Shown here: positions 14,299 to 33,811 of the stretch, piece by piece
Numbering within the stretch: position 1 is the stretch's first letter
Layout of the letters: each line of letters opens with the position of its first letter
DNA from: Centipeda periodontii DSM 2778
GTDB taxonomy: Bacteria; Bacillota; Negativicutes; Selenomonadales; Selenomonadaceae
Reading direction: 5' to 3'
DNA length: 48,786 bases
Assembly: GCF_000213975.1 (NCBI RefSeq)
Contig: NZ_GL892076.1
Span: forward strand, 2,217,144 to 2,265,929
Made by a program: the position numbers and the translations under genes
The notes under the pieces: generated by a model
The model's database searches: none
What the model was told of the DNA's origin: nothing
The model's input: only the letters and a program-made list of their open reading frames with translations

Positions 14299-14445
14299 GG
14301 AATTACTGATAAAACGAACCTTCAATTGGCGTAGATTCTTCGTCCGAACAATGTGGAAAACCGGACGCAGCGTGGTGCTCTGTGGAGGATTTGCCGACGA
14401 AGTACTGACCGTCAAGAGATGCAATCTGAATTTATCAATGCGTTC
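14299..14445. mobile_element. MITE-like foldback element, copy 1 (most diverged)
   Basis: 147-bp member of a four-copy family. Left end GGAATTACTGATAAA and right end TTTATCAATGCGTTC form degenerate terminal inverted repeats. The interior keeps the shared TTGGCGTAGAT and GTGGTGCTCTGTGGAGGATTTGCC segments. A TTA follows the right end (14446-14448), but the left flank has no TTA, so the target duplication is lost. With the birA promoter and the ftsH terminator it accounts for the 324 bp between birA and ftsH. Confidence 0.8.
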
Positions 14446-21411: not shown

Positions 21412-21424
21412 CCCACAATGCGAA

Positions 21425-21455
21425 CAAAAAACCGGACCCCCATTGGAAGTCCGGT
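21425..21455 (-). terminator. Intrinsic terminator downstream of HU
   Basis: Minus-strand stem ACCGGAC/GTCCGGT with an 11-nt loop, followed by six T. It lies on the far side of MITE copy 2 from the HU stop codon. Without the element it would start about 22 nt after the HU gene. Confidence 0.85.
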
Positions 21456-21479
21456 CTCACGTTCAAGAGAATCCTCTTA

Positions 21480-21641
21480 GGGAATCACTGATAAAATGAA
21501 GTCCGCCAGATTGGCGTAGATTTTTTCGTCCGAACGAGGAGGCAAACCGGACGCAGAGTGGTGCTCTGCGGAGGATTTGCCGACGCAGTGCGGGCAAAAA
21601 AGATGCGCTAAGATGGCGGTGCTGAATTTATCGGTACTTCC
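21480..21641. mobile_element. MITE-like foldback element, copy 2
   Basis: 162 bp. Left end GGGAATCACTGATAAA, right end TTTATCGGTACTTCC. It is flanked by TTA on the left (21477-21479) and TTA on the right (21642-21644). The right TTA is the HU stop codon read on the minus strand (TAA). Interior arms TTGGCGTAGATTTTTT and AAAAAAGATGCGCTAA pair imperfectly, as do GCAAACC and GGATTTGC and CGCAGAG/CTCTGCG, so the whole element folds into one long hairpin. Confidence 0.88.
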
Positions 21642-21914
21642 TTAGTTCACAGAATCCTTCAGAGCTTTGCCAGCCTTGAACACGGGCGTCTTCGAAGCCG
21701 GAATATCGATCTCCTCGCCCGACTGCGGATTGCGTCCCTTGCGTGCCTTACGATCCTTCACCTCGAAGGTGCCGAAACCGATCAGTTGAATTCTGTCACC
21801 CTCGGAAAGTGCGCTCTTAATTGCCTCAAAAACGGCATTGACCGCCTTTTCTGCATCCTTCTTTGTCAGACTTGCCTGCTCTGCTACGTTTGCGACCAAT
21901 TCCTGCTTGTTCAA
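21642..21914 (-). CDS. hup: HU-family DNA-binding protein
   Basis: 90 residues, the normal HU length, beginning [13 protein letters not shown] from a TTG at 21914 with an AAGGAGG site 8 nt upstream. The conserved [19 protein letters not shown] beta-arm region and the [16 protein letters not shown] tail are intact. It bends and compacts DNA. A longer in-frame start would not match any HU. The stop codon TAA is directly abutted by MITE copy 2. HU downstream of a YabN/MazG-type gene is typical of Clostridia. Confidence 0.96.
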
Positions 21915-21981
21915 AGTAGCATCCTCCTTTAAGATATGATCCATTTCCTCAGCGACCACAGGTGTCGCACTGTCATGAGAG

Positions 21982-22010
21982 AATTTAACAGAATTACCTA
22001 GAAAAATCAA
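21982..22010 (-). promoter_or_regulatory. Putative promoter of the HU gene
   Basis: TTGATT (22010-22005), 17-bp spacer, TAAATT (21987-21982) with a TGT just before the -10 (extended -10). The -35 abuts the tail of the upstream terminator, leaving a leader of about 65 nt. Confidence 0.65.
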
Positions 22011-22039
22011 GGGGAAAAACAAAAAAAACGTTTTTCCCC
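22002..22039 (-). terminator. Intrinsic terminator of the YabN-type methylase gene
   Basis: Minus-strand stem GGGGAAAAAC/GTTTTTCCCC with a T-rich loop, followed by TTGATTTTTC. It starts 15 nt after the methylase stop codon. Confidence 0.75.
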
Positions 22040-22054
22040 CCTAAAAATATGAAT

Positions 22055-22753
22055 TTATTCGTTGTTTTCCCAAAAAACAGGAACGTACGGGATGAAAAGC
22101 GTGGTCAAATGGTCGATATCATCCTGCCAATCGAGCTCAAAAAGAGGTATCCGCTCGACCCTCTGATCGGGAAGCGCAAGATGATGCAGATAGATGACCT
22201 CCTGTGTATCAGGGAAATGCTCCATCAGGAGGATCTTCAGATCCGATGCAAGCTCACGTGAATAGAGCTGCGTAATGATCAGATCCTGTGCCGGCGGTGC
22301 GGCAACGGCATCCTCGTTCAGCGCATCTATGATCGAAAGGCCGTTCACGGGATCGAGGCTGAGTGCCGCGAAGAGCGGATCCAAAAAACTCATCGCAGGC
22401 AGGATCTCGATGGGCTGCCCCTTCTCCATCGTCCGCGTGCGCAGGAGCTGTACCGTGCGCTCAGCGACAAACGGACTGCCCGGAACGAGATAGAGCACAT
22501 CGTTTGCCTGCACGCGTTCCATCAAATCATTCGTAATTGCTTCATAGAGTTCTTCAAAATCCTCGGCATCCTCGTAAAAATCATCGTAGGTTTCATACGT
22601 AATCCCCGCCGCATCCAGCGCCGCCACCGTCGGGTGGATGCGCGTGCGCAGAAAGATATGTTCTGCCGCCTCGATGCGCGCCCACGTTTCACGCGTGATC
22701 AGCCCCGCATCACCGGGACCAAGCCCCGCCACGGTCAATTTGTATTCTGCCAT
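22055..22753 (-). CDS. YabN-type SAM-dependent methylase domain, MazG domain absent
   Basis: 232 residues from ATG 22753. It matches the tetrapyrrole-methylase-like half of YabN: LTVAGLGPGDAGLITRETW, then FLRTRIHPTV, YLVPGSPFVAERTVQLL and DLIITQLYSRELASDLKILL. In Bacillus YabN this half is fused to a C-terminal MazG nucleoside-triphosphate pyrophosphohydrolase. Here the frame stops after FWENNE, and a terminator and the HU promoter follow, so there is no MazG domain. It follows mfd by four nt. Function of the lone domain is unknown. Confidence 0.85.
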   Translation of the reverse strand: MAEYKLTVAGLGPGDAGLITRETWARIEAAEHIFLRTRIHPTVAALDAAGITYETYDDFYEDAEDFEELYEAITNDLMERVQANDVLYLVPGSPFVAERTVQLLRTRTMEKGQPIEILPAMSFLDPLFAALSLDPVNGLSIIDALNEDAVAAPPAQDLIITQLYSRELASDLKILLMEHFPDTQEVIYLHHLALPDQRVERIPLFELDWQDDIDHLTTLFIPYVPVFWENNE

Positions 22754-22757
22754 TCTT

Positions 22758-27667
<4,910 letters not shown>

Positions 27668-27672
27668 CTAAA

Positions 27673-28002
27673 TCAGTTCTGAATACTCTCGAGCTTCTTC
27701 TTGCGCGTTGTTTCCTTCGTGACGGCAGCCTTTGTCGTCCCCGCAGACGAGCGAGATGAGGAGCGTTTGACCTCAGGGGGAACCCACTCGGTCAGCCCCC
27801 ATTTGCTCTCTCCCTCATAGTGGAAGCGGCTGTCCATATTCATCATCGTGTAGATCTCGGAGATCGCCATCGCAAGCGACTGCACCGGCTTGTGCGTTGA
27901 TTCGATAACCTCGATGATGAGATCCTTGTAGTGTATCGGCTCCCCCTTCTGCGAAAGAATGTGATAGGCGGTGTCCACTTCCGACATATGTTCAAAATCC
28001 AT
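27673..28002 (-). CDS. rpoE: RNA polymerase delta-like HARE-HTH protein with basic tail
   Basis: 109 residues. The N-terminal HARE-HTH domain (about 7-75: AYHILSQKGEPIHYKDLI ... MNMDSRFHYEGESKWGLTEW) is that of the RNA polymerase delta subunit, and its place before pyrG is the classic rpoE position. Bacillus delta has a long acidic C-terminal region; here residues 76-109 are instead rich in Lys, Arg, Ser and Thr with almost no acidic residues. The start ATG 28002 has a GAGAGGAG site. MITE copy 3 lies between argS and this gene. Domain call sure; delta function less so. Confidence 0.8.
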   Translation of the reverse strand: MDFEHMSEVDTAYHILSQKGEPIHYKDLIIEVIESTHKPVQSLAMAISEIYTMMNMDSRFHYEGESKWGLTEWVPPEVKRSSSRSSAGTTKAAVTKETTRKKKLESIQN

Positions 28003-28038
28003 AGGTACGCTCCTCTCAGCGAATGCGTTTTTCCTTTA

Positions 28039-28200
28039 GGGAACCACTGATAAAATGAAGTCCGTCAGATTGGCGTAGATTTTTTCGTCCGATTGAGGAG
28101 GCAAACCGGACGCAGAGTGGTGCTCTGTGGAGGATTTGCCGACGAAAAGCGGGCAAAAAAGATGCGCCAAGATGATGGTGCTGAATTTATCAGTGGTTCC
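28039..28200. mobile_element. MITE-like foldback element, copy 3
   Basis: 162 bp, with the best-preserved terminal repeats: GGGAACCACTGATAAA on the left and TTTATCAGTGGTTCC on the right. TTA flanks both sides (28036-28038 and 28201-28203); the right TTA is the argS stop codon (TAA on the minus strand). It is same-length and co-oriented with copy 2 and differs at few positions, so the two copies are probably recent. It places a long RNA hairpin between argS and the delta-like gene. Confidence 0.9.
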
Positions 28201-29859
28201 TTACATCTTCTCCGGTGCCGACACCCCAAGCACGCCGAGGCTGTGACGAATCACGCGTCCCGTCGCCAGCACGAGGGCGAGACGAGCGACGGCAAGTGCC
28301 GGTTCCTGTCCCACAATGCGGCATTTATTGTAAAACGAGTGAAATGCACCCGCCAGTTCATGGCTGTAGCGCGCAATGCGCTGCGGCGCAAACTCCGCCG
28401 CCGCGCGTGCGATCTCCTCGGGATAGGAGGCTATCTTCTTGATGAGCGCGATCTCCGTCTCATCCGTCAGCAGTTCGAGTTCCGCGCCGTCCCGTACGAC
28501 AATGCCCGCCTCATCCGCCTGACGGAAGATGCTCGAAATGCGTGCGTGTGCATACTGAATGTAGTAGACGGGGTTCTCGTTGGACTTCTTCGTCGCCAGG
28601 TCGAGGTCAAAGTCGAGCTGACTGTCCAGCGAGCGCATGAGGAAGAAATAACGGGCCGCGTCGACGCCGACCTCCTCCATCAGCTCGCGCAGGGTGACCG
28701 TCTCACCCGTGCGCTTGCTCAGCTTCACGATCTGCCCGTCGCGGTAGAGGCTCACCATCTGGAGAAGCAACACCGTGAGCTGCTCTGCATCATGCCCAAG
28801 GGCTGCCATCGCCGCCTTGACGCGTGCCACATAACCATGATGATCAGCACCCCAGATGTTGATAAGGCGCCCATAACCACGCCTGTATTTGTCATCATGA
28901 TAGGCAATATCCGCAGCAAGATAGGTCGGCACACCGTTATCGCGAAAGATCACGCGGTCCTTGTCGTCGCCGTAGTCCGTCGAGCGCAACCAGACGGCAC
29001 CGTCCTTTTCGTATGCCGTGCCACGCTGAAGCAGCACATCCACCACACGGCGCACGGCATCCGGATGGAGCGTCCGCTCACTGAACCAACGATCGAATGT
29101 CACGCCGAAATCCGCGAGATCCGCCTCAAGTGCCGCAAGCTTCTCGCGGTAGGCAACATCTTGGAAGAGTTTGATCCGCTCCTCCTCGGGCATAGCGAGA
29201 TATTTATCCCCATCGCGGTCAATGATCCGCTGCGCCGTCTCCACGATGTCTGCGCCGTGGTAGCCATTCTCTGGGAACTCCACCGCCTGTCCGAGGAGTT
29301 CCAGATAGCGTGCATTCACGGATACGGCAAGGAGATTCATCTGATTGCCCGCATCGTTGACATAGTACTCGCTGTCCACGTCATAGCCCGCCGTGCGCAG
29401 GAGTTTCACAAGCGCCGAGCCGACCGCCGCACCACGTCCATGCCCGACATGAAGCGGTCCCGTCGGATTCGCACTGACGTATTCCACCTGGATGCGCGGT
29501 GCCCCATTGGGTGGAAGCGTACCGAATGCCTCACCTGCGGCAAGAACGGCACGCAGGGTATCGGCAATCACAGATTTCCTCAGATAGAGATTGAGAAATC
29601 CGGGACCCGCTACCTCCGCATGATCGAGCCAGTCCCCCATCAGATGCTCTTTGATTGCCGCTGCAATCTTCTGCGGCGACTGACGAAAGACACGCGCCGA
29701 CTGCATGGCGAAATTCGTCGCGAAGTCGCCCAGTTCCTTTTCCGGCGGCTCCTCCAAAAGGACGGCGGGAAGTGTTCCGCCCGCCGGCAGCTGCCCTGTT
29801 GCCACTGCCTCCTCCACGGCACGTATGAGCGCCTGCTCGATCTGCTGTTTGATATCCAA
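28201..29859 (-). CDS. argS: Arginyl-tRNA synthetase
   Basis: 552-residue class I synthetase. The HIGH-type motif is ANPTGPLHVGHGRGAAVG and the C-terminal anticodon-binding domain ends AHARISSIFRQ...HSLGVLGVSAPEKM. The KMSKS position reads IVKLSKRTGETVTLRELMEEVG. The start is TTG at 29859 with AAGGAG about 11 nt upstream. It follows ywiB by 16 nt, as in the Bacillus ywiB/argS/rpoE/pyrG group. Its TAA stop is directly bordered by MITE copy 3. Confidence 0.97.
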   Translation of the reverse strand: MDIKQQIEQALIRAVEEAVATGQLPAGGTLPAVLLEEPPEKELGDFATNFAMQSARVFRQSPQKIAAAIKEHLMGDWLDHAEVAGPGFLNLYLRKSVIADTLRAVLAAGEAFGTLPPNGAPRIQVEYVSANPTGPLHVGHGRGAAVGSALVKLLRTAGYDVDSEYYVNDAGNQMNLLAVSVNARYLELLGQAVEFPENGYHGADIVETAQRIIDRDGDKYLAMPEEERIKLFQDVAYREKLAALEADLADFGVTFDRWFSERTLHPDAVRRVVDVLLQRGTAYEKDGAVWLRSTDYGDDKDRVIFRDNGVPTYLAADIAYHDDKYRRGYGRLINIWGADHHGYVARVKAAMAALGHDAEQLTVLLLQMVSLYRDGQIVKLSKRTGETVTLRELMEEVGVDAARYFFLMRSLDSQLDFDLDLATKKSNENPVYYIQYAHARISSIFRQADEAGIVVRDGAELELLTDETEIALIKKIASYPEEIARAAAEFAPQRIARYSHELAGAFHSFYNKCRIVGQEPALAVARLALVLATGRVIRHSLGVLGVSAPEKM

Positions 29860-29875
29860 CTTCGTTTAATCTCCT

Positions 29876-30307
29876 TTACATTGGCTCAACGCGCATTTCC
29901 AACGTGTTGTCACTCTGGCGCACACCGTCCACATAGAGCGTATAGAAAATATATGCCTCCTCCACCCCGTCGGGATATGTACGCATACGGAGGCGCCGCG
30001 TCAGTGTTTTGATGAGGAACATGCCATACGGCGTACGATAATTGCTCGTGCGTTCTTCTCCCATGGCAAAGTGCTGTGTCCAACGCACCACACCGCGCCG
30101 CTGCAGCATGACACCAGAATTACCGATCCGCAAAATCGTCGGGATTTTCTCTCCCTCAATCAGCTCCGTATCGTCATAGCTGATATAACGGCTCTCTCCA
30201 CGCAAAAAACGCCGTCCTTTAACGGACAGCGCAATGCGGCTCTCCTCGCCCGCAGCATCCACCTGTCTCCCATTGAGAAAGACACGTACCTGCTCCGCAC
30301 CCTTCAT
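29876..30307 (-). CDS. ywiB: DUF1934 protein, YwiB family
   Basis: 143 residues of a calycin-like beta-barrel family with no established role. Matches to DUF1934 are the YDDTELIEG segment, LRIGNSGVMLQRRGVVRWTQ, the YRTPYGMFLIKTLTR segment and FYTLYVDGVRQSDNTLEM at the end. The ATG at 30307 has a GGAGGG site. Linkage to argS and the delta-like gene matches Bacillus and supports the call. Confidence 0.82.
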   Translation of the reverse strand: MKGAEQVRVFLNGRQVDAAGEESRIALSVKGRRFLRGESRYISYDDTELIEGEKIPTILRIGNSGVMLQRRGVVRWTQHFAMGEERTSNYRTPYGMFLIKTLTRRLRMRTYPDGVEEAYIFYTLYVDGVRQSDNTLEMRVEPM

Positions 30308-30345
30308 CGAATCGTCCCTCCGATAAAAAGTGTGTCCTGCACGGC

Positions 30346-30810
30346 TTACGTCTGATCGACAGCGATCGCCAGATCCACCAGCTGACCGCTCAGGTTCATC
30401 TCTACAATGAGGTATTGCCCGTCACTGATCTTGACCTCAAAATCCTTGCCCACAGTGAGCGACGGCGTCGAGATGTCAACGTCGAGTCCAAGCCCCGTGA
30501 TATTCGTTGCCGTGTGCGCCGTCAGCATATTGCTGAGCTCCGAGATCGCACTCTGTGCCATCTCATCGAACGTTGCCACCGGCATGCCCATCATCATCTG
30601 GGACGCGATGAATCTCGCCGTATCCTCACTCATATTGTAGACTACATTCCCACGGATCTGCTTTGTAAAGCCGACGAGCATCGACACACCGAGACTCTTG
30701 ACCCGCATCGATGCGGCGTAGAGCTTCGTCCGCTTCGGCTCCGGGAAGCCCAGCATCGGCATGACCGTCGTAAAGGCATCCACAAAAGGATTGATCAGTT
30801 TTGCATCCAT
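30346..30810 (-). CDS. cheX: CheX-type chemotaxis phosphatase
   Basis: 154 residues, single CheX domain. The phosphatase signature ExxN is visible in AISELSNMLTAH, and the N-terminus MDAKLINPFVDAFTTVMPML is typical. CheX removes phosphate from CheY-type receivers. The start ATG has a GGAGAG site and overlaps nothing; three bases separate it from the REC-CheX gene, so the two are co-expressed and probably act together. No receptor, CheA, or flagellar gene is in the window. Confidence 0.85.
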   Translation of the reverse strand: MDAKLINPFVDAFTTVMPMLGFPEPKRTKLYAASMRVKSLGVSMLVGFTKQIRGNVVYNMSEDTARFIASQMMMGMPVATFDEMAQSAISELSNMLTAHTATNITGLGLDVDISTPSLTVGKDFEVKISDGQYLIVEMNLSGQLVDLAIAVDQT

Positions 30811-30813
30811 TGA

Positions 30814-31677
30814 TTACTCTCCCTCTGCAAAGCCCACATTCATCCGCACCATTCCAATTGGCAGTCGCATACTGATACAGAACGTCGTCATACGGGGGCT
30901 GACAATATGCACCTGTGCCCCACGAATCGTCCCCGGCGGTGTCAGGCGCAGTTCCTTCCCCTCAAGTACGTTGTTGATCTTCGAAACGGCACGCCCTGCG
31001 ATAATGTTTGCCGCCTCTTCCACAGCATCCACCGCTTCGTCATCTTCGAGCTCTTCCACGGTCGCACGCCCAAGCATATGCATGGCGAACAGTTTGATCA
31101 TCGCTTCATCCACATAGAGGATTGCACGCCCTGTTGTAAATCCCGTGATGCCGATAATAACTGCGGCACCGCTCACATCGAGCGAGCGCGAGTGATACGG
31201 TTCGATCTCGACTTCCCCCTCCATATGGAGGAGCCCCGCTACACATTGTTGCAGTCCGCGTCCGAACGGCTTCGCGTAAAGTTCGCGAAAGACCGACTCC
31301 TGACTTGCCGCCGACTCACAGACCATGTGGAGTGTATCTACCAGATCGGATTTCGACACCGGCTTTTGTAGAAATGCACGGATTCCAACAGCCCTTCCCT
31401 GTACGATAAGATTCAGATCTTTCATCGCACTGACCATCAAAATCTTTGCATCCGAATCCACCGTCAGAATACGTCTGCTGCACTCCAACCCATTGGCATC
31501 CGGAAGATTCATATCCATCGTCACAAGATCCGGATGCAGCTCGGTGTAAAGTTTCAGTGCCTCCACAGCGTCTGCCGCCATGCCGCAGACCTCGAAATCC
31601 GTGTCCTTTAGATTCTCAGCAATCATCACGCGGCTGATCTTGGAGTCATCCACAATCAGCACCCGTAATTTCCCCAT
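30814..31677 (-). CDS. Response regulator receiver fused to a CheX/CheC-like domain
   Basis: 287 residues. Residues 1-120 form a receiver domain with LIVDDS, the phospho-acceptor D55 in TMDMNLPD and the LQKPV lysine. Residues 130-285 form a CheX/CheC-like domain with an ExxN-type motif in AVEEAANIIAG. The pairing suggests a phosphatase controlled by its own receiver, or a self-dephosphorylating sink. It lies upstream of and is coupled with a lone CheX. A weak promoter precedes it. The signal output is unknown. Confidence 0.85.
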   Translation of the reverse strand: MGKLRVLIVDDSKISRVMIAENLKDTDFEVCGMAADAVEALKLYTELHPDLVTMDMNLPDANGLECSRRILTVDSDAKILMVSAMKDLNLIVQGRAVGIRAFLQKPVSKSDLVDTLHMVCESAASQESVFRELYAKPFGRGLQQCVAGLLHMEGEVEIEPYHSRSLDVSGAAVIIGITGFTTGRAILYVDEAMIKLFAMHMLGRATVEELEDDEAVDAVEEAANIIAGRAVSKINNVLEGKELRLTPPGTIRGAQVHIVSPRMTTFCISMRLPIGMVRMNVGFAEGE

Positions 31678-31720
31678 ACAACTTCACCCTCTTTTACGGA
31701 CTATCACAGGTGTATTCCCT

Positions 31721-31749
31721 ATTATACACGAAACTACAGCTTTCGTCAC
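31721..31749 (-). promoter_or_regulatory. Putative promoter of the REC-CheX/CheX unit
   Basis: GTGACG (31749-31744), 17-bp spacer, TATAAT (31726-31721). The -10 is perfect and the -35 matches four of six. It overlaps the stop codon of the glyoxalase gene. Confidence 0.45.
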
Positions 31750-32111
31750 ATATTTTTTGGCAAAACTTCGACCCAGTACCCATCCGGATCTTCGACGAAG
31801 TAGATCCCCATTTCGGCATTCTCATAGCAGATGACGCCCATCTCCGCATGTTTCGCACGCGCCGCCTCATAATCATCCGTATGGAGCGCAAGGTGAAACT
31901 CCTTCTCCCCAAGGTTATATGGCTCCGTACGCTCATGCAGATACGTCAGTTCCAGCTCAAAATCCGTTGCGCCATCCCAGAGATAGACCAGTGTGAAGCC
32001 CTCCGCCTCCAGCCGACGCTTCTCACGAAAGCCGAACGCCTTCTCATAGAACGCCATGCTGCGCGCAAGATCGAGCACATTAAAGTTCACATGGGTAAAT
32101 GTAAATGACAT
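31746..32111 (-). CDS. gloA: VOC-family protein, glyoxalase I (lactoylglutathione lyase)
   Basis: 121 residues from ATG 32111, which has a GGGAGGA site; longer in-frame starts lack one. Two beta-alpha-beta-beta-beta modules carry likely metal ligands: H7 in FTHVNF, a glutamate in FELELTYL, the histidine in FHLALHTDD and the glutamate in YWVEVLP. That set matches GloA-type glyoxalase I, which detoxifies methylglyoxal. The family is broad, so another VOC function remains possible. Confidence 0.75.
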   Translation of the reverse strand: MSFTFTHVNFNVLDLARSMAFYEKAFGFREKRRLEAEGFTLVYLWDGATDFELELTYLHERTEPYNLGEKEFHLALHTDDYEAARAKHAEMGVICYENAEMGIYFVEDPDGYWVEVLPKNM

Positions 32112-32149
32112 TGTTTCCTCCCGTTCAAAAAACATTGTATCGCGGCAAC

Positions 32150-32163
32150 ACTGCATATGCAGT
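32150..32163. promoter_or_regulatory. Perfect 14-bp palindrome upstream of gloA
   Basis: ACTGCATATGCAGT reads the same on both strands, 39 bp upstream of the glyoxalase start. It might be an operator. I see no convincing promoter pair with it, so this is only a candidate. Confidence 0.3.
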
Positions 32164-32188
32164 AACGAATGCAACATTTTACTTGTTA

Positions 32189-32338
32189 GGAATCACTGAT
32201 AAAATAGACCTTCCGATTGGCGCAGATTTTTCGTCCGATTGAGGCACGCACAGCCAAAGCTATGTGGAGGATTTGCGAACGAAAAGCGGACAAAAAAGAT
32301 GCGCTAAAATGGCGTGGCTGAATTTATCAGTGCTTCCG
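32189..32338. mobile_element. MITE-like foldback element, copy 4
   Basis: 150 bp. Left end GGAATCACTGATAAA and right end TTTATCAGTGCTTCC, with one extra base at each end. TTA flanks both sides (32186-32188 and 32339-32341); the right TTA is the PutP stop codon. The middle differs from copies 2 and 3 (a short deletion and changes around 32245-32265), but the outer stem is intact. Confidence 0.87.
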
Positions 32339-33811
32339 TTACGTTCCATCCACGCGATCAAACAGATCCGTTACCTCGTGTGCAGGCTCCGCATCCAGCA
32401 TGCTCACAACATAGATCGCAATCAGTCCGAAGAAGAATCCGGGCACGATCTCATAGAGCCCGAAGAGCGCCAACTGCTTCCAGACGAGCACCGTAACGCC
32501 GCCCGTCACAATCCCCGCGAGCACACCGCGCTCCGTCGTGCGCCGCCAGAAGAGGCACATGAGAAGCGCAGGACCGAACGCGGCACCAAAGCCCGCCCAC
32601 GCATACGCCACCATGTCAAGGATGAAGTTGTCCGGACTCAGCCCGAGATAGATCGCCGCCGCTGCAATTGCAAGCACAGACATACGACTCACCCAGACCA
32701 GCTCTACCTGCTGCGCATGCGGTCGAAAGCTGCGCCGATAGATATCCTGCGCGAACGCCGATGCCGCGACAAGCAGCTGCGCAGACGCGGTGCTCATAAT
32801 CGCCGCAAGCACCGCCGCAAGGATCAGCCCCGCAAAAACAGGCGGGAAGAGCTCCCCTGCCATCGCTAGGAACACCGTCTCCGCCGCCGTTCCTTCCAGC
32901 GGTGTCTGTAAATAGACCGCTCCAACCATGCCGACCAAGATCGCAGCAGAAAGAGAGATCACCACCCATGCCATCGCAATGCGCGTTGCCTGCGGCAGTT
33001 CTTCCGCGTGACGGATCGCCATAAAACGTACGAGGATGTGCGGCTGACCGAAATAACCGATCCCCCATGCCATCAGCGAGATGAACTCAATGAAGCCGAG
33101 CGTGCTCCCGTCCACCTTTGTGAGGGGCGAGAAAAACGAAGCGTGTTCCGTGTAGATCAGTTCTGCCGTCGTCGTAAAACCGCCGAGCATAATCGCGGCG
33201 CCCACAGGCACCACAAGAATGGCAAAGAACATCATCACGCCCTGAATGAAGTCCGTGCGCGATACGGCAAGAAAGCCGCCGACAAGCGTATAGAACACGA
33301 CCACGCCCGCTCCCGCAAGGAGTGCGGTCAAATACGGCAGATGGAAGATCGTCTCAAAGAGACGCCCCGCTGCCACAAAGCCTGAGGACGTATAGAGAAT
33401 GAAGAAGATCAGGATGAAGATCGCCGGAACGATGCGCAGCGCCCCCGAGGTCGCAAAGAAGCGATTCTCGAAGAAATCCGGCAGAGTCAGCGAGTTGTTC
33501 GCAAGCTCCGTGTAGATGCGCAGACGCGCAGCGATGAACTGCCAATTCGCCCACGTCCCAAGTGCAAGACCAAGCGCGATCCACCCCGCATTGAGTCCCG
33601 CCACATAGGCGAAGCCGGGCAGCCCCATAAGCATCCACCCCGACATATCCGACGCCTCGGCACTCATCGAGGTGACCCATGCACCAAGCTTGCGATTGCC
33701 AAGGAAGTAGTCGCTCATGTTTCGCGTGCGCCGATAATAATAGACACCGATCCCCATCATTACGAGCATATAGACAAGGAAGATTACACTGATTTCAATT
33801 TGCTCTGCCAA
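32339..33811 (-). CDS. putP: Sodium/proline symporter, PutP type
   Basis: 490-residue member of the sodium:solute symporter family with about 13 membrane helices. The N-terminus has YYRRTRNMSDYFLGNRKLGA followed by MSAEASDMSGWMLMGLPG, the sodium/proline-site signature of PutP, then LPDFFENRF. It imports proline with Na+. The start is TTG at 33811 with a GGGGGA site. A good promoter lies just upstream, and MITE copy 4 borders the stop. There is no proline dehydrogenase gene nearby, so uptake may serve protein synthesis or osmotic balance. Confidence 0.92.
   Translation of the reverse strand: MAEQIEISVIFLVYMLVMMGIGVYYYRRTRNMSDYFLGNRKLGAWVTSMSAEASDMSGWMLMGLPGFAYVAGLNAGWIALGLALGTWANWQFIAARLRIYTELANNSLTLPDFFENRFFATSGALRIVPAIFILIFFILYTSSGFVAAGRLFETIFHLPYLTALLAGAGVVVFYTLVGGFLAVSRTDFIQGVMMFFAILVVPVGAAIMLGGFTTTAELIYTEHASFFSPLTKVDGSTLGFIEFISLMAWGIGYFGQPHILVRFMAIRHAEELPQATRIAMAWVVISLSAAILVGMVGAVYLQTPLEGTAAETVFLAMAGELFPPVFAGLILAAVLAAIMSTASAQLLVAASAFAQDIYRRSFRPHAQQVELVWVSRMSVLAIAAAAIYLGLSPDNFILDMVAYAWAGFGAAFGPALLMCLFWRRTTERGVLAGIVTGGVTVLVWKQLALFGLYEIVPGFFFGLIAIYVVSMLDAEPAHEVTDLFDRVDGT

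Follow-up and report, generated by a model that had tools for sequence, protein, structure and literature searches.

Several genes in a 48,786-bp stretch of the Centipeda periodontii DSM 2778 genome (RefSeq assembly GCF_000213975.1, contig NZ_GL892076.1, positions 2,217,144 to 2,265,929 of the forward strand), referred to as the window herein, end directly against short foldback repeats that abut their TAA stop codons. Does this element seek out stop codons, or does it come to rest there by a less specific route? Our analysis indicates, with a probability of about 0.78, that the repeats are non-autonomous foldback miniature inverted-repeat transposable elements (MITEs) of ∼160 bp belonging to the IS5 family, and that their placement at stops is mainly a by-product of a YTAR target (Y, pyrimidine; R, purine) and purifying selection, with no dedicated targeting system involved. 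The copies in the window, their target-site duplications (TSDs) and the genes whose stops they adjoin are as follows.

14299..14445, plus strand: MITE copy 1, 147 bp with diverged ends; flanks TGAA and TTAA, without a perfect TSD
21477..21480: left TSD of copy 2, TTAG
21481..21641, plus strand: MITE copy 2, 161 bp
21642..21645: right TSD of copy 2, TTAG; 21642-21644 is the HU TAA stop, minus strand
21642..22022, minus strand: gene for the HU DNA-binding protein (PF00216)
28036..28039: left flank of copy 3, TTAG, a duplication that differs by one base from the TTAC on the right
28040..28200, plus strand: MITE copy 3, 161 bp, used as the query in our searches
28201..28204: right TSD of copy 3, TTAC; 28201-28203 is the argS TAA stop, minus strand
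28201..29859, minus strand: argS, arginyl-tRNA synthetase (PF00750/PF05746)
32185..32188: left TSD of copy 4, GTTA
32189..32337, plus strand: MITE copy 4, 149 bp
32338..32341: right TSD of copy 4, GTTA; its last three bases, 32339-32341, form the minus-strand TAA stop of the SSF/putP-like gene
32339..33811, minus strand: sodium:solute symporter gene (SSF, putP-like; PF00474)

As a preliminary description of this DNA had claimed, the TTA triplets at 21642, 28201 and 32339 are the in-frame, minus-strand TAA stops of HU, argS and the symporter gene, and a TTA was also found to the left of each of copies 2, 3 and 4. The same description had this triplet start at the base after the right end of every element, which holds for copies 2 and 3 but not for copy 4, where the first base 3′ of the element is the G of GTTA rather than a T. 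Its count of three junctions out of three is correct for copies 2 to 4. Copy 1, however, sits between the start of a birA-like gene (14287, 11 bp off) and the stop of ftsH (14528, 82 bp off), its nearest gene stop, and has no stop-codon junction, which makes the window count three of four.

Both ends of the element carry the terminal repeat GGAAnCrCTGATAAA. Pattern and BLAST matches listed for the C. periodontii genome formed 158 clusters, partly chance hits and fragments, and at least 105 copies had both 15-bp terminal repeats 130 to 170 bp apart, most at 159 to 162 bp. The two-ended count was 104 in one tally and 105 in another, in which duplicates were removed differently, and these figures are lower bounds, with each pattern search reporting at most 100 places. 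The sole open reading frame (ORF) of at least 20 aa that lies wholly inside copy 3 and its flanking duplications has 44 aa, and there is no transposase. The repeats thus combine the traits by which a MITE is recognized: short length with terminal inverted repeats, TSDs together with element-free orthologous sites, and no transposase coding. All 14 genomes of the genus contained the element, although for two of them (G001 and G009) the listed matches numbered just two or three and were weak or incomplete, and at the family level it was present in 34 of 151 sampled genomes, representing 11 of 30 genera. The element showed no preferred orientation, either with respect to the gene at whose stop it lies (16 versus 17) or between co-directional neighbors (35 versus 33 among 104 C. 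periodontii copies). Some called genes extend into the element and terminate 11 bases past its edge, at a TGA that belongs to the terminal repeat; this accounts for 9 of 17 gene ends that run into elements (L006, L057, L078, L085 and L106 in C. periodontii; L225, L236, L242 and L272 in relatives).

The flanks of the copies define the target. Among 175 two-ended copies (C. periodontii, G011, G006 and G013), 104 had a perfect 4-bp TSD with the pooled consensus YTAR, and beyond these four bases the consensus amounted to at most 0.18 bit per position. The most frequent perfect duplications in C. periodontii were TTAA, TATA, CTAG, TTAG and CTAA; the target is looser than strict YTAR, with TATA, TTTA and TAAA likewise used. 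The preliminary description had proposed an insertion with target duplication that spares the stop and leaves the element just outside the gene, and this part stands. The 3-bp TTA duplication that it proposed does not: of 104 copies, 52 have flanks that agree perfectly over 4 bp, and in 7 the agreement is limited to 3 bp. Since YTAR contains TAR (TAA or TAG) on each strand, a pyrimidine followed by a stop is the target itself, and duplication of YTAR at a stop restores the stop codon. Called genes in the window hold 38 YTAR sites in 45,571 bp, versus 33 sites in 3,215 bp of intergenic DNA (the latter including the copies' own flanks), so per base the motif is about twelve times rarer within genes than between them.

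A candidate source of transposase was found in the same genome and in relatives. The transposase ORF at L031 in C. periodontii scored 284 bits against the NCBIfam IS5-family model NF033581 (cut-off 140), and PF01609 and PF05598 were above cut-off for the transposase of this genome. At five loci in relatives (L193 to L197), we found insertion sequence (IS) copies of ∼1.24 kb with terminal repeats identical in type to those of the MITE, and at L195 a 332-aa transposase ORF lies between them. Four of these copies are flanked by YTAR on both sides with one base differing (L193, TTAA/TTAG; L194, CTAA/TTAA; L195, TTAA/CTAA; L196, TTAG/TTAA), and the flanks at L197 are TCAA/TTAG. In addition, a MITE is nested in an IS copy of C. 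periodontii (G000) with like terminal repeats, in a TTAA/TTAA duplication (L206 948-2199; the MITE is near G000:C1:1853653-1853813). At L031, two repeats at ∼2550-2660, which we take to be CRISPR-like (resembling clustered regularly interspaced short palindromic repeats), stand beside the right end of an IS5-family copy that lacks a left end.

Comparison with orthologous sites in 13 relatives (14 genomes of the genus including C. periodontii) provided evidence of insertion. At the argS stop, TTAC occurs once in 11 of the 13 relatives, which carry no vestige of the element. In G005 (L149), two TTAC copies at this place enclose a short scar that retains both ends of the element and is apparently an internally deleted MITE, and in G003 a degenerate inverted remnant lies beside the stop. 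The preliminary description had suggested a comparison with empty sites; element-free sites with a single target were found, and empty sites with two TTAs were not seen. No BLAST-detectable element was present at the HU site in any of the 13 relatives; TTAG is retained in four of them. Of the remaining nine, eight have TGA as the HU stop, and the CTGA in which it lies does not fit YTAR. The symporter site likewise had no BLAST-detectable element in 13 of 13 relatives, with G003 showing an inverted repeat-like stretch there. At the purA stop (TTC TAA), a MITE with a CTAA duplication is found in G000 and G011, and 12 of 14 genomes have none. The sequences flanking the G000 copy are very similar to the corresponding site in G012, which has no element. 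Because the element is absent from G013 and G008, the nearest to G011 in the tree, and because the downstream DNA differs, the insertions in G000 and G011 are likelier to have been parallel than to represent an ancestral copy that was lost elsewhere. Taken together, the shared repeats, the 4-bp duplications, the element-free sites with one target copy and the nested MITE suggest that the MITE is mobile. At the HU locus we also noted a terminator-like inverted repeat (window 21420-21480) that directly follows the stop in element-free relatives and here lies beyond the MITE; from this position, we predict that copy 2 is probably located in the 3′ untranslated region of the HU mRNA.

How often do copies fall on stops? 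At a called stop were 19 of 105 copies in C. periodontii, 12 of 45 in G011, 2 of 16 in G006, 0 of 9 in G013 and 6 of 24 in G003, or 39 of 199 (20%) in five species. Genes were called by a custom codon-usage script rather than a standard gene finder, and the copies from relatives were those that matched the window copy best in BLAST (at least 94 copies, 80 stretches), a sample biased to close, young copies. Given the five-species rate, the chance that at least three of four window copies lie at stops is P 0.026; the window is therefore an unusually rich sample and not the rule. The 33 stops examined outside G003 comprised 24 TAA, 6 TAG and 3 TGA, and 25 of these 33 genes had Pfam domains at the thresholds used, including purA, a lexA-like gene, phosphofructokinase, clpX, mnmE, argS and HU (the Pfam check covered these 33). 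Eight had no Pfam hit; one of them, the 84-aa stop gene at L109, adjoins a MITE that is nested within an IS copy and is probably not a real gene. A stop count of 24/95 was discarded because it included genes reading into the element.

To estimate the number expected, each copy was compared with all non-damaging sites in its own, computationally emptied intergenic region, with 4-mers weighted by the preference shown by copies located away from stops. This null used 169 of the 199 copies; excluded were those with no gene call on one side, with a gene call into the element or with no weighted site. When YTAR copies were compared with YTAR sites of equal weight, 21 copies were at stops versus 17.3 expected of 81 (P 0.024), and for C. 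periodontii alone 9 versus 7.4 expected of 42 (P 0.17). The weighted null for G003 alone gave 6 versus 4.6 expected of 20 (P 0.21). The over-representation of stop sites put forward in the preliminary description is thus seen against each null used here and is significant against most of them, but not against the strictest one in C. periodontii or in G003 alone. A large part of the stop association is the target motif combined with where insertions survive; what remains is a 1.2- to 2-fold excess, depending on null and subset, that may reflect either target choice or selection.

These results fit a simple route. An IS5-family transposase that recognizes the shared GGAAnCrCTGATAAA would move the MITE in trans, and insertion would duplicate a 4-bp YTAR-like target. 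Surviving insertions would be mostly intergenic, where some of the harmless YTAR sites are a gene's own stop, and the staggered duplication would keep that stop intact with the element just downstream. Because YTAR is rare in genes and holds TAR on both strands, surviving copies would lie partly on stops. Several observations weigh against this account. Similarity between the MITE and the IS is confined to their ends, and no complete autonomous IS copy was seen in C. periodontii, where we found one without a recognized left end, one partial and one split by a MITE. Under the 4-mer-weighted null, 39 copies were at stops versus 23.8 expected of 169, a number not reached in any of 50,000 simulations; without G003, the figures were 32 versus 17.7 of 148, and for copies with perfect duplications 21 versus 11.0 of 91. 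The excess is confined to the stop itself, with 24 copies versus 25.5 expected at 2 to 30 bp 3′ of stops. Lastly, there was no age trend: nearest-neighbor identity was 0.975 for both stop and non-stop copies, and stops were occupied by 21 of 104 copies with a perfect TSD and by 12 of 71 with an imperfect one. Slow selective retention is for this reason no obvious explanation of the stop excess.

Of the alternatives, the one that survives best, and which we consider possible, is that insertion is blind to stops and that copies directly after a stop are favored or best tolerated since they leave promoters, ribosome-binding sites and coding sequence untouched. Sites far from 3′ ends were indeed under-used (23 versus 33.4 expected in the class 'other'; 20 versus 23.9 at 31 to 100 bp on the 5′ side). 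Yet positions 2 to 30 bp past stops should be equally tolerable and are unenriched, positions 0 to 30 bp from gene starts are undepleted (11 versus 10.7), and the missing age trend speaks against selection as well.

A rather unlikely extension is that IS5-type transposition is drawn, beyond YTAR, to sites of translation termination, for instance because the DNA melts locally or is more accessible at places where transcription becomes uncoupled from translation. Stops would then be a safe harbor occupied at up to about twice the rate that the motif predicts, and the hairpin would be kept as a strand-specific structured RNA.

The hairpin itself showed a property that we had not expected. An alignment of 70 C. 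periodontii copies (67 distinct), from which 28 mostly diverged copies of 98 had been removed by hand, showed changes on both sides in 13 of 50 pairs. Such both-side changes occupied 114 cells, versus 35.2 ± 6.4 in shuffled alignments and at most 13 in slid versions. A rerun on all 98 copies (95 distinct) left the outcome unchanged, with 14 of 40 pairs and 140 cells versus 51.7 ± 5.6, although the copies share ancestry and these counts correspond to few independent events. On the canonical strand, G.T outnumbered A.C by 390 to 103 cells in a register fixed by hand (65 of the 103 being in one pair), and pairs with at least 5 cells numbered 14 for G.T and 2 for A.C. The canonical strand also gave the more stable RNA fold in all 67 distinct copies of the smaller alignment and in 92 of the 95 in the larger one. 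Because covariation is accompanied by a preference for G.U over A.C on one strand, these data suggest that the hairpin is under strand-specific RNA or single-strand constraint. Template-switch correction of a quasi-palindrome is an alternative source of hairpin covariation. An Rfam scan of the window found no family reaching its gathering score.

The proposal of the preliminary description, that the element actively targets ochre stops through a TTA duplication as a strategy to spare genes, appears improbable. It draws on the three of four window copies, on a five-species count 1.2- to 2-fold above the motif nulls, on a purA stop that is occupied in two species and empty in the other 12 of 14 genomes, and on an argS stop where one species has a full copy, another a scar and a third a remnant alongside. 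A site-specific element that targets stops would have the majority of its copies there; in our survey ∼80% lie elsewhere, an outcome that the preliminary description had itself named as refuting. The duplication is 4-bp YTAR, TAG and TGA stops are used besides TAA, and scant consensus beyond the 4 bp is available to mark an in-frame stop. Dedicated ochre targeting is thus not supported. Least probable of all is that gene-calling errors and a lucky window produced the association: a spurious call such as L109, the eight stop genes without Pfam hits and the richness of the window would fit, but Pfam domains are present in 25 of the 33 stop genes, which include several housekeeping genes, and the rate recurs at 14/70 in G011, G006 and G013 (yet 0/9 in G013) and 6/24 in G003.

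The preferred reading, a YTAR target filtered by purifying selection, carries a rule that is easily overlooked: the YTAR target of IS5-type elements reads as TAA or TAG, a stop, on either strand, which allows such elements to occupy gene ends harmlessly. This helps to account for the tolerated insertions at the ends of the probably essential argS, purA and HU genes. The rule can be tested in other genomes with IS5-type MITEs, and the stop excess is a measurable quantity that could serve to separate target choice from selection. Among the matches listed in our literature search, titles and the starts of abstracts yielded no paper about the element described here or about IS5-type MITEs located at stop codons, which is not proof of absence.

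With respect to known systems, Correia, ERIC, RUP and BOX elements have ends and targets that differ from those of the MITE described here. Like it, they are small, mostly intergenic repeats, and, according to one review, RNase III cleaves transcripts that contain Correia elements, and transcript levels are affected where an ERIC copy lies at the 3′ end of a gene (PMC10969869). MITEAba12 of Acinetobacter resembles our element in being short and non-autonomous, in having similarity to its IS limited to the terminal repeats and in its TSDs, which its abstract reports for 40% of 90 copies; unlike it, MITEAba12 is 113 bp long, belongs with another IS (ISAba12) and makes a 9-bp duplication, and the sections consulted mention no stop-codon preference (PMC6382973). 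A further parallel is IS5 itself, which in Escherichia coli is reported to duplicate YTAR (PMC10359306; PMC5493358). Consistent with E. coli IS5 and the NF033581 model, the genus contains an IS5-family transposase, the MITE makes a 4-bp YTAR duplication, and its repeats are shared with the IS of the genus. In contrast to IS5, the MITE carries no transposase, has just its ends in common with the IS and uses a looser target. We thus regard the element as an IS5-family MITE with a YTAR target, which yields a generally useful rule on YTAR and stop codons and leaves a residual excess of copies at stops.

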